Assembly: GCA_026225295.1 (NCBI GenBank)
Contig: JAMFSN010000012.1
Location: forward strand, 1-41,318
Reading direction: 5' to 3'
Length of the DNA: 41,318 nucleotides
From: Frankia alni
GTDB lineage: Bacteria; Actinomycetota; Actinomycetes; Frankiales; Frankiaceae
In this document: piece after piece, positions 4,853-20,894 of the stretch
Numbering within the stretch: position 1 is the stretch's first letter
How the letters are laid out: each line of letters begins with the position of its first letter
Position numbers and translations under genes: made by a program
The notes under the pieces: generated by a model
What the model saw: the letters and a program-made list of their open reading frames with translations, nothing else
Told to the model about the DNA's origin: nothing
Database searches by the model: none

Positions 4853-4920
4853 TGTCGGCCGCTCCGGCTGGCGGCGTCTACCGCCTGCCGGACCCGCCCG
4901 CGTGGGCCACTGTTGCGGGC

Positions 4921-4982
4921 GGTGGGTAGGTCGGACCGCGGGCGGTGGGTGGGTCGGACGATCGCCGGTGGGTGGGTCGGAC
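4921..4982. repeat. Three 23-bp-period repeats upstream of RNase J
   Basis: The 16-bp core GGTGGGTNGGTCGGAC occurs at 4921-4936, 4944-4959 and 4967-4982 with exact 23-bp spacing and only one variable base (A, G, G). The array ends 22 bp before the putative -10 element of the RNase J gene. Spacing of about two helical turns puts all cores on the same DNA face, which suits cooperative protein binding. Confidence 0.88.
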
Positions 4983-5004
4983 GATGGCCGGCCGGGGTTT
5001 CCCG

Positions 5005-18509: not shown

Positions 18510-19118
18510 GTGGACATGAAACTCGAGGTTGTGGTGGTGCCGGTCGCCGACGTGGACCGGGCCAAGAACTTCTACCTCGCGCTCGGCTGGCGGGAGGATG
18601 CCGACTTCGCCACCGGCGCGGACTTCCGGGTCGTGCAGCTGACCCCGCCGGGCTCGCCGTGCTCGGTCATCTTCGGCACCGCGGTCACCACGGCCGTCCC
18701 CGGCTCGGCGGAGGGCCTGCAGCTGGTGGTGGATGACGTCGAGGCGGCCCGCGCCGAACTGGCCAGCCACGGCGCACCGGTCAGCGAGGTCTTCCACGAC
18801 GCGGGCGGGGTCTTCCACCACGGCGGCACCGCCGGGCGGGTGGCGGGGCCGGCCGCGGACCGCCAGAGCTACGGCTCGTTCGCCTCGTTCAGCGACCCGG
18901 ACGGCAACACCTGGTTCGTCCAGGAGGTCACCACCCGCCTGCCGGGCCGCGTCACGCCCGCGCCGGCGGCCTACGACTCCGCCGCCGACCTGGCCGGGGC
19001 GCTGCGCCGCGCGGCCGCCGCGCACGGCAAGCACGAAGAGGAAACCGGCCAGGCCGACGCGAACTGGCCGGACTGGTACGCGCAGTACCTGGTCGACGAT
19101 CGGACGGGGGGCGCATGA
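18510..19118 (+). CDS. VOC/glyoxalase-fold protein
   Basis: 202 residues. A vicinal-oxygen-chelate domain (about 1-140) shows paired beta-alpha-beta-beta-beta modules: LEVVVVPVADVDRAKNFYLALGWRED, then LQLVVDDVEAARAELASHGAPVSEV and SFASFSDPDGNTWFVQEV. The C-terminal tail HGKHEEETGQADANWPDWYAQYLV is typical of a group of actinobacterial VOC proteins. The reaction is unknown (isomerase, dioxygenase or resistance-type binding protein). The GTG 18510 start has AGGAG about eleven bases upstream; ATG 18516 is an alternative. Its stop TGA overlaps the ATG of the first of three tandem micro-ORFs (ATGA at 19115-19118), which lead on to the FAD oxidoreductase gene. Confidence 0.87.
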   Translation: MDMKLEVVVVPVADVDRAKNFYLALGWREDADFATGADFRVVQLTPPGSPCSVIFGTAVTTAVPGSAEGLQLVVDDVEAARAELASHGAPVSEVFHDAGGVFHHGGTAGRVAGPAADRQSYGSFASFSDPDGNTWFVQEVTTRLPGRVTPAPAAYDSAADLAGALRRAAAAHGKHEEETGQADANWPDWYAQYLVDDRTGGA

Positions 19119-19210
19119 GCGGGCGGCGGGAGCGAGCGGGGTGCCGGCCGAGGAACGAGGTCGGCGCCGAAGTCGAGCGGGTCGCCGAGCCGCGAACGGA
19201 GGGCATATGA
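19115..19210 (+). CDS. Micro-ORF 1 of tandem repeat, 31 residues
   Basis: Encodes a basic, Arg/Glu-rich peptide beginning MSGRRERAGCRPRNEVG and ending EPRTEGI. The ATG overlaps the stop of the VOC gene and the TGA overlaps the ATG of micro-ORF 2, so translation could pass along by termination-reinitiation. No similarity to known domains. It may be translated only to keep ribosomes moving through the operon. Confidence 0.4.
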   Translation: MSGRRERAGCRPRNEVGAEVERVAEPRTEGI

Positions 19211-19302
19211 GCGGGCGGCGGGAGCGAGCGGGGTGCCGGCCGAGGAACGAGGCCGGCGCCGAAGTCGAGCGGGTCGCCGAGCCGCGAACGGAGGGCATAT
19301 GA
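19207..19302 (+). CDS. Micro-ORF 2 of tandem repeat, 31 residues
   Basis: Same length as micro-ORF 1, differing by a single Val-to-Ala change (RPRNEAG). Starts on the ATGA that ends copy 1 and ends on the ATGA that starts copy 3 (ATATGA). Confidence 0.4.
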   Translation: MSGRRERAGCRPRNEAGAEVERVAEPRTEGI

Positions 19303-19394
19303 GCGGGCGGCGGGAGCGAGCGGGGTGGCGACCGAGGAACGAGGCCGGCGCCCGAGTCGAGCGGGTCGCCGAGCCGCGAACGGGGGGCATGTGA
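19299..19394 (+). CDS. Micro-ORF 3 of tandem repeat, 31 residues
   Basis: Diverged copy with Trp for Cys at position 10 (MSGRRERAGWRPRNEAG), Arg for Glu in the middle and ending EPRTGGM. The frame has stayed open despite these changes. Its TGA (19392-19394) overlaps the GTG start (19391) of the FAD oxidoreductase as GTGA. Confidence 0.4.
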   Translation: MSGRRERAGWRPRNEAGARVERVAEPRTGGM

Positions 19395-20752
19395 CCGGCG
19401 GCAACTACGACGTGATCGTCGTCGGGGCCGGCTCGCCGGGCGAACACTGCGCCGGGGAGCTGGCCGGCGGCGGCCTGCGGGTCGCCGTGGTCGAGAAGGA
19501 ACTGGTGGGCGGCGAGTGCTCGTACTGGGCGTGCATTCCGTCCAAGACGCTGCTGCGCCCCGGCGAGGTGGTTCAGCAGGCCCGGGAGGTGGGGGCGACC
19601 GCCCAGGTGGACGTCGCGGCCGCACTGGCCTACCGCGACTTCATGGTCTCCGACCACTCCGACGCCGGCCAGGAGACGTGGCTGGCCGAGCACGGTATCG
19701 ACCTGATCCGCGGCACCGGCCGGCTGGCCGGACCGGGCGTCGTCGAGGTGGGCGGCGTTCGGCACACCGCCGCGCACGTCGTGCTGGCCACCGGTTCCGA
19801 TCCGGTCGTGCCACCGGTCCCGGGCCTGCGCGAACTGACCGGCCTCTGGACCAACCGCGAGGTCACCGGGATGAAGGAGGTGCCCCGGCGCCTGCTGATT
19901 CTGGGCGGCGGACCGGTCGGCGTCGAGATGGCCCAGGCCGTCCGGCGGCTGGGCGGCGAGGTGGCGCTCGTGGAGGGCGCCGACCACGTGCTGGCCCACG
20001 AGCCGGCGCCGCTCGGCGAGGCGCTGGGCGAGATCCTGCGCCGCGACGGCGTCGAACTGGTCCTCGGGACCCACGCGACCGCCGCGCGCCGCGCCGACGG
20101 CGCGAGCGGGGACGGCGGGGACTACGTGCTGACCCTCGAGGACGGCCGTGAGCTGCGCGGCGACCGGCTGCTGGTCGCCACCGGCCGGCGTCCCCGGGTC
20201 GCCGACCTCGGTCTGGAGACGGTCGGGGTCGAGGCCGACCCGCACGGCGTGGCGGTCGACGCGCACCTGCGGGTCGGTGAGCGGTTGTGGGCGATCGGCG
20301 ACGTGACCGGGGTGCGGCTGCTGACCCACGTCGGCAAGTACCAGGGCGAGATCGTCGCCGCGAACATCCTCGGCGAGCCGCGCGAGGCCCACTACGAGGC
20401 GGTGCCGGACGTGGTCTACACCGACCCCCAGGCGGCCGCGGTGGGCGCCGGCGAGGCCCGGTTCAGCGCGACCGCGCGGCTGGCGGACGTGGCCAAGACG
20501 GCGACCTACACCCACGCCTACGCCGAGTCGAACGGCTTCCTGACCCTGCTGTCCGACGGCGACCGGCTGACCGGCGCCTACGCGGTCGGCCCGGAGGCGG
20601 GTGAGTGGCTGCAGCAGGCCACGTTGGCCATCCGGGCCCGCGTGCCGCTCGAGGTGCTGCGCGACGTCATCCAGCCGTTCCCCACCTTCTCGGAGATCTA
20701 CGTCGGCGCGCTGAAGGCACTGCACGCCGAGATCCGGGCGGAGGCGCCGTGA
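19391..20752 (+). CDS. FAD-dependent disulfide-reductase-like oxidoreductase
   Basis: 453-residue flavoprotein of the dihydrolipoamide dehydrogenase/mercuric reductase family. N-terminal FAD fold VIVVGAGSPGEHCAGELA; redox motif GGECSYWACIPSK with C43 and C48 in the CxxxxC spacing; NAD(P) fold RRLLILGGGPVGVEMAQAVRRLGG around residue 170; second FAD motif RLWAIGDVTGV; C-terminal dimer domain. The catalytic His-Glu dyad (HPTxxE) is not intact: the segment reads QPFPTFSEIY, with Phe in place of His, so classical lipoamide reduction is doubtful. GTG 19391 is chosen because it overlaps the micro-ORF 3 stop (GTGA). Part of a coupled chain with the VOC gene; followed at once by a dehydrogenase remnant. 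Confidence 0.92.
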   Translation: MTGGNYDVIVVGAGSPGEHCAGELAGGGLRVAVVEKELVGGECSYWACIPSKTLLRPGEVVQQAREVGATAQVDVAAALAYRDFMVSDHSDAGQETWLAEHGIDLIRGTGRLAGPGVVEVGGVRHTAAHVVLATGSDPVVPPVPGLRELTGLWTNREVTGMKEVPRRLLILGGGPVGVEMAQAVRRLGGEVALVEGADHVLAHEPAPLGEALGEILRRDGVELVLGTHATAARRADGASGDGGDYVLTLEDGRELRGDRLLVATGRRPRVADLGLETVGVEADPHGVAVDAHLRVGERLWAIGDVTGVRLLTHVGKYQGEIVAANILGEPREAHYEAVPDVVYTDPQAAAVGAGEARFSATARLADVAKTATYTHAYAESNGFLTLLSDGDRLTGAYAVGPEAGEWLQQATLAIRARVPLEVLRDVIQPFPTFSEIYVGALKALHAEIRAEAP

Positions 20753-20753
20753 G

Positions 20754-20894
20754 CGCCGGGCCGAGGTGGCCCCGATCCGGGTCAATTGCATCGCCGACGT
20801 CGCCGCGCTCGCCGTGCACCTCATGACCAATACCGCGATCACCGGCGCGACCCACGACATCGACGGCGGCCAGCAACTGGTGCCCGGCCGGTGA
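20754..20894 (+). pseudogene. Remnant of a short-chain dehydrogenase/reductase gene
   Basis: Reading from 20754, the frame gives RAEVAPIRVNCIADVAALAV followed by HLMTNTAITGATHDIDGGQQ and LVPGR-stop. The second half is the conserved C-terminus of an SDR protein (HLMTN..TGATxDIDGGQQLV) and the first residues match the PIRVN strand that normally lies about 40-50 residues earlier, so an internal stretch and the whole N-terminal Rossmann part are missing. There is no start codon in a sensible place other than GTG 20766. Its stop overlaps the next gene's GTG (GTGA). A decayed gene kept between two coding regions is the simplest view. Confidence 0.72.

Follow-up and report, generated by a model that had tools for sequence, protein, structure and literature searches.

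What occupies the space between the VOC/glyoxalase-family gene and the FAD/pyridine-nucleotide oxidoreductase gene of this Frankia alni contig, and why does each short reading frame within it end on the start codon of the next? In the window (the whole stretch of 41,318 nucleotides that was analyzed), the VOC gene lies at 18510..19118 on the + strand (ORF; Pfam Glyoxalase, PF00903) and the 453-aa oxidoreductase gene at 19391..20752 on the + strand, with a GTG start at 19391 (ORF walk; Pfam PF07992 (Pyr_redox_2) and PF02852). The gap between them is filled exactly by three head-to-tail 92-bp units (19115-19390), a point on which the sequence itself, Tandem Repeats Finder (period 92, 94% match, score 514), and the ORF walk concur. 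The VOC gene TGA (19116-19118) falls within the ATGA at 19115-19118 that opens unit 1. Unit 1 (19115..19206, + strand) carries the ORF MSGRRERAGCRPRNEVGAEVERVAEPRTEGI, whose stop overlaps the unit 2 ATG; the 31-aa ORF of unit 2 (19207..19298, + strand) ends over the unit 3 ATG, and that of unit 3 (19299..19390, + strand), also 31 aa, over the oxidoreductase GTG. From the ATG at 19115, the ORF walk ran through 31, 31, and 31 codons and then the 453-codon oxidoreductase, the junctions reading in order ATGA/ATGA/ATGA/GTGA, with each micro-ORF stop overlapping the next start in the -4 (NTGA) arrangement. The chain of 31-codon frames described in the initial annotation was recovered for 3/3 units, and its reading of these as separate ORFs, with no single fused frame, agrees with the period of 92. 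Units 1 and 2 differ at a single base; unit 3, which had been called divergent yet intact, is 93% identical to unit 2 and keeps its frame and junctions.

A Shine-Dalgarno-like GGAGGG, read from the sequence at 19198..19203 (+ strand), 3 nt 5' of the unit 2 ATG, recurs at 19290-19295, and GGGGGG stands at 19382-19387 ahead of the oxidoreductase GTG; the GGAGGG motifs are putative ribosome-binding sites. Elsewhere in the window, a short-chain dehydrogenase C-terminus remnant (VNCIADVAALAVHLMTNTAITGATHDIDGGQQLVPGR) with GTGA at both ends sits at 20753-20894 between the oxidoreductase gene and a MOSC/reductase-like gene, and a 23-bp unit (CGGTGGGTGGGTCGGACGATGGC) forms 3.1 tandem repeats at 4920-4991 (Tandem Repeats Finder).

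When unit 2 was used as a query, copies were found on nine other contigs of the same genome (G000) at E < 1e-7, and the expectation for the 31-base core match was 0 in shuffled sequence. A covariance model built on these copies (R1) detected 18 copies in this genome, including the three window units, that is, about 15 further ones, where the initial annotation had named a unit unique to this site as the finding that would count against its reading. Most copies lie between co-directional genes. The element starts with RTGAGCGGGC, in which the TGA usually doubles as the stop codon of the gene before it, and in at least 8 further copies in this genome the frame ends precisely where the following gene has its start codon. 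These coupled loci include gene pairs that we take, from translated sequence rather than database matches, to be nrnA-like/truB, an ArsA-like pair, argC/argJ, prenyl-synthase/squalene-cyclase, and TetR/glycerol-3-phosphate dehydrogenase (GlpD-like), among others. Start-to-start distances of 92, 92, 95, 134, 131, 92, 128, and 191, and of 41 in a short form, are all 2 mod 3, which is kept at the coupled loci despite indels and nested insertions. In two copies the frame continues into the following gene, which encodes an ABC ATPase in one case and a HAD hydrolase in the other, and another copy (L081) lies between rplB and rpsS. At L008, a decayed second copy start (AGAGCGGGCCGGGGGAGC) follows directly after the first copy, fused into a HAD hydrolase gene. 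The earlier description of the window units holds, although it overlooked that their core is one base shorter than that of the dispersed copies (GCGG-GG versus GCGGAGG); after this one-base loss, the window units use another frame and specify another peptide than the dispersed copies, and are still open and coupled.

Since DNA BLAST against 58 relatives returned chance-level coding matches only, a covariance model was needed to follow the element among the Frankiaceae. A strict pattern searched in 394 genomes matched the own genome only, a pattern scan of genome contigs detected the element in Frankia nepalensis and Pseudofrankia only, and Rfam held no family matching the repeat. In the largely open-access literature that was searched, no Frankiaceae element of like design is described. 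R2, a covariance model whose training was extended with newly found copies, identified 8-72 copies in 7/8 Pseudofrankia genomes (genus g6) and 1-3 copies in 4/5 genomes of the putatively Protofrankia-like genus g3 (range 0-3), with genomes of g5 (putatively Frankia) and g2 nearly copy-free. The Pseudofrankia copies mostly have a start-to-start length of 90 bp and are joined in frame to the gene that follows. Pseudofrankia also carries an intergenic subclass (ggtcgccggagcgcccGTGAGCGGAGGAGGACG...) away from the coupled junctions, in which no open frame is kept (L123, L124, L126, L164-L166, L169, and L170, in genomes G005, G010, and G022); here the hairpin may be put to a distinct, extragenic use.

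Several filled junctions have repeat-free counterparts in relatives. At the window pair, the end of the VOC gene and the start of the oxidoreductase gene overlap at ATGA in G016 ('GGCGTATGAACGGC'), and the junction reads 'GGCGGATGACCGGC' in G002, where the VOC gene has decayed; both are repeat-free, giving 0 versus 3 copies between genera. The aroC-aroK junction reads 'ctctcGTGAGCG' in one Pseudofrankia versus GTGAGCG, element, and GTGAGCG in another. It is empty in G010 ('ctctcGTGAGCGGCGTCCGGCCG') and in Pseudofrankia inefficax EuI1c (G005), filled in Pseudofrankia sp. BMG5.36 (G026), where 'ctctcGTGAGCG' is followed by the remainder of the 90-bp element and then 'GTGAGCGATGTCCGGCCG', reduced to a shortened remnant in G022, and empty in the other genomes. 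The argJ start is empty in G005, G028, and G026 ('GTGAGCGTCACC' in G005 and G028), the element is present at the argJ start codon in G014, and nrnA-truB is filled in the own genome only. These empty and filled sites show that insertion took place at the junction and that species within one genus differ in it. The earlier proposals that the repeat inserts within operons and that further copies lie at ATGA junctions of unrelated operons were thus borne out, the former by the repeat-free junctions of the same gene pairs in relatives and the latter in both the own genome and relatives.

GTGAGCG occurs once at aroC-aroK when the site is empty and twice when it is filled, and the element may carry one of these copies itself. 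Longer flank repeats are present at tal-pgi and rplE-rpsN, those at tal-pgi, such as GGAGGCGGCGAAGTGACGAGCGA, carrying a ribosome-binding site and the NTGA. Such flank repeats look like target duplications, which are clear at some sites only. The array could also have arisen from an ordinary intergenic spacer that was duplicated locally in tandem and whose frames are open by chance, as G+C-rich frames often are and as the antisense frames here are too; this account sits poorly with dispersed homologues, empty sites, and junctions preserved at differing lengths. The dispersed copies and the empty and filled aroC-aroK sites refute it, and we give it practically no credence.

Two outcomes recur at the filled sites, namely a coupled micro-ORF (length 2 mod 3) and an in-frame N-terminal extension (90 bp). 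The proposal that this is a MIRU-like element was supported, although the second, in-frame-fusion mode in relatives had been overlooked. Finding an NTGA at a TGA stop means little in itself, whereas homology support for its NTG as the start of the following gene is not trivial. In a control that took in all copies beginning with NTGA (n = 76), 61/76 were coupled or fused in the true frame, compared to 26/76 and 21/76 in the two shifted frames; about a fifth of the copies were neither coupled nor fused, the intergenic subclass among them, which counts against the coupled design as a general rule. Frames broken elsewhere, a second outcome that had been set against the initial reading, did not emerge as the pattern, most sites either closing on the next start or fusing in frame. 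Simple mod-3 binomial tests were weakly significant (p = 0.006 and 0.02), and our argument therefore rests on the empty sites, the homology-fixed starts, and the shifted-frame control. Junction preservation and tandem growth, like insertion and the two frame outcomes, are visible in the sequences compared. Taken together, the dispersed copies, the empty sites, the frame control, the tandem coupled arrays in other families, and the lack of selection on the peptide (both described below) indicate that the array is very probably a tandemly amplified, short, non-autonomous mobile repeat that inserts at operon NTGA start/stop junctions or start codons.

The unit shared by these copies is real, as initially annotated, but its conserved part, which had been missed, is a hairpin rather than the peptide. 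In unit 1, fold and family covariation place a hairpin with 10-bp arms and loop GAGGAACGA at 19140..19168 (+ strand), and the same evidence places those of units 2 and 3 at 19232-19260 and 19324-19352 (+ strand). The family hairpin (10 bp, loop GAGGNACGA) is conserved: 97.5% of cells are paired and 35 are double-changed, the covariation score is 0.515 versus 0.177 shuffled, 0/500 shuffles scored as high on paired cells or covariation, and slid controls scored far lower. Because single-sequence folding was unexceptional (z = -1.8), the claim for the hairpin rests on covariation. Its conservation is compatible with a hairpin that acts in RNA and equally with one that serves mobility as DNA. Two further structures were observed around it. 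At L115, L118, L133, L134, and L156 in Pseudofrankia (G014 and Frankia nepalensis CN7, G025), the hairpin loop itself contains a ~40-bp palindromic repeat (CGGACCTCCCAGATCGGC...GCCGATCCGGCAGGGACCCCGG), as if insertions landed there. In both genera, a further hairpin block (GGGGTCCCCG...GGGGGGGCGATGAGT or similar) closely follows the element hairpin on its 3' side (L011, L012, and L082 in the own genome; L143-L145, L151, L152, and L154 in Pseudofrankia), where the element frame remains open or coupled.

If the 31-residue peptide were instead a functional small protein under selection, its frame should be open, as it is in all window units and nearly all copies, but third-position changes should also be in excess, and they are not: differences at codon positions 1/2/3 number 44/39/44, and synonymous to nonsynonymous ratios are similar in all three frames. 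The one-base deletion moreover gives the window units a different peptide, and no Pfam match was found for it. The even spread of changes over codon positions, together with the altered frame of the window units, led us to reject peptide function, which we hold to be very improbable; judged by these substitution patterns, the hairpin is conserved and the peptide is not.

The conserved hairpin, shortness, and many copies would equally suit a REP-type element spread by a Y1 (RAYT/TnpA-REP) transposase. However, the Y1 domain PF01797 is absent from the own genome and from 7/7 element-rich Pseudofrankia tested, while it is present in 4/5 element-free Frankia/Parafrankia tested (G009, G017, G029, and G001, but not G004), and the copies lie at coding junctions rather than in extragenic sequence. 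This distribution contradicts a RAYT/REP origin, short of an unrecognised Y1 relative, and we consider such an origin very improbable.

How could a mobile repeat enter operons at their coupling sites? The element brings its own RTGAGC start codon, and the frame opened there is stop-free. With a second NTGA at its end in the -1 frame (2 mod 3), the micro-ORF closes on the next start; an alternative end in frame (90 or 93 bp) would add ~30 residues to the next protein. We propose that, in the window, a ribosome terminating the VOC gene at ATGA would restart at the overlapping ATG, read 31 codons while opening the hairpin, end on the next ATGA, and restart, for three rounds, such that the chain would still deliver ribosomes to the oxidoreductase. 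Such termination-reinitiation coupling would mainly limit damage, with the repeat spreading in operons and the distal genes not cut off; movement itself would presumably require a mobility enzyme. The repeats might alternatively be retained as regulators, with downstream versus upstream enzyme output set by the hairpins or by the number of restarts in the chain (one, two, or three). The GGAGGG that closes units 1 and 2 does match a Shine-Dalgarno sequence better than the GGGGGG ahead of the oxidoreductase, hairpin covariation is strong, and arrays of 2-4 units are common in relatives; yet the genes at the sites are unrelated (argJ, truB, aroK, trpA, ribosomal proteins), and relatives get by with the sites empty. 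Any such regulatory use seems unlikely.

The R2 model, trained on Frankiaceae only, produced matches of E about 1e-6 in a few genomes outside the family, and inspection revealed the same architecture, often in tandem. R3, a covariance model whose training included some of these matches, detected the element in 38/394 genomes of the class, in families f1, f9, f17, and f19, the distant members (f9, f17, and f19) resting on covariance-model scores with which the architecture agrees. In one genome, three 95-bp units of identical sequence separate gltB from gltD, and their 32-codon frames link up at ATGA. Other sites carry one 95-bp unit (tal-pgi), two 100-bp units (trpB-trpA), three 95-bp units (an ABC ATPase/permease pair), or two 93-bp units in frame (another permease). 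Homology across families is no more than probable, since R3 had been trained on some of the matches. We somewhat favor the broader view that these repeats belong to a superfamily of transposase-less mobile repeats in several actinomycete families, of which MIRU would be either a part or a parallel. Translation-coupling sites would be its targets, and its design (own start, stop-free frame, hairpin, duplicated NTGA) would admit it even to essential operons (aroC-aroK, rplB-rpsS, trpB-trpA), with translation uncut, via a coupled micro-ORF or an in-frame extension.

The spread and operon location of MIRU-type repeats are little understood. Here a related design is seen beyond the mycobacteria, and cultured Pseudofrankia species offer filled as well as empty sites, so that target choice, duplication, and translational cost can be tested directly. 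The sites also form a natural series of 0-4 coupled micro-ORFs ahead of known enzymes, and they carry a warning for annotation in that many Pseudofrankia proteins may owe ~30 residues at the N-terminus to the repeat.

Among known systems, REP/RAYT and MITE elements are likewise short, repeated, hairpin-bearing, and non-autonomous, but differ in that the present element has a coding location and, unlike REP/RAYT, lacks the Y1 transposase in the Frankiaceae carriers tested. No MITE-type terminal inverted repeats of at least 12 bp span the window unit, and no transposase with matching ends was found. Rickettsia palindromic elements (RPE) are short mobile repeats that enter gene bodies in frame in protein genes and keep a conserved peptide (PMC10969869). 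Their in-frame insertion resembles the 90-bp Pseudofrankia mode, a feature that many Pseudofrankia relatives share; unlike RPE, the element inserts at start/stop junctions, its peptide is not conserved, and the window copies are separate ORFs. Mycobacterial interspersed repetitive units (MIRU), reportedly described by Supply et al. in 1997 (PMID 9426136), are the basis of tuberculosis strain typing. Like MIRU, the element is a short interspersed repeat (92 bp), single or in tandem between co-directional genes, its own ORF overlaps the flanking ORFs (-4 nt) in 3/3 window units and at least 8 other loci, and it inserts at NTGA or start codons, as repeat-free junctions in relatives attest for the window pair, argJ, and aroC-aroK. 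The 1997 abstract is said to describe MIRU as being without dyad symmetry, in contrast with the covarying 10-bp hairpin of the Frankiaceae element, which, along with the in-frame-fusion mode in Pseudofrankia and the wide actinomycete spread (four families of the class, Frankiaceae being one), sets the element apart from MIRU. The senX3-regX3 MIRU measure 77 and 53 bp (PMC4213456). MIRU are thought to insert at start codons with their own ORF coupled at -4 nt, which limits harm to host genes (Brown and Wade 2025, PMC12548453), coupling being most efficient at spacings of -4 to +3 nt (PMC12548453). The Frankiaceae repeat is thus a real MIRU-like element family outside mycobacteria, likened to MIRU by design and not by sequence.
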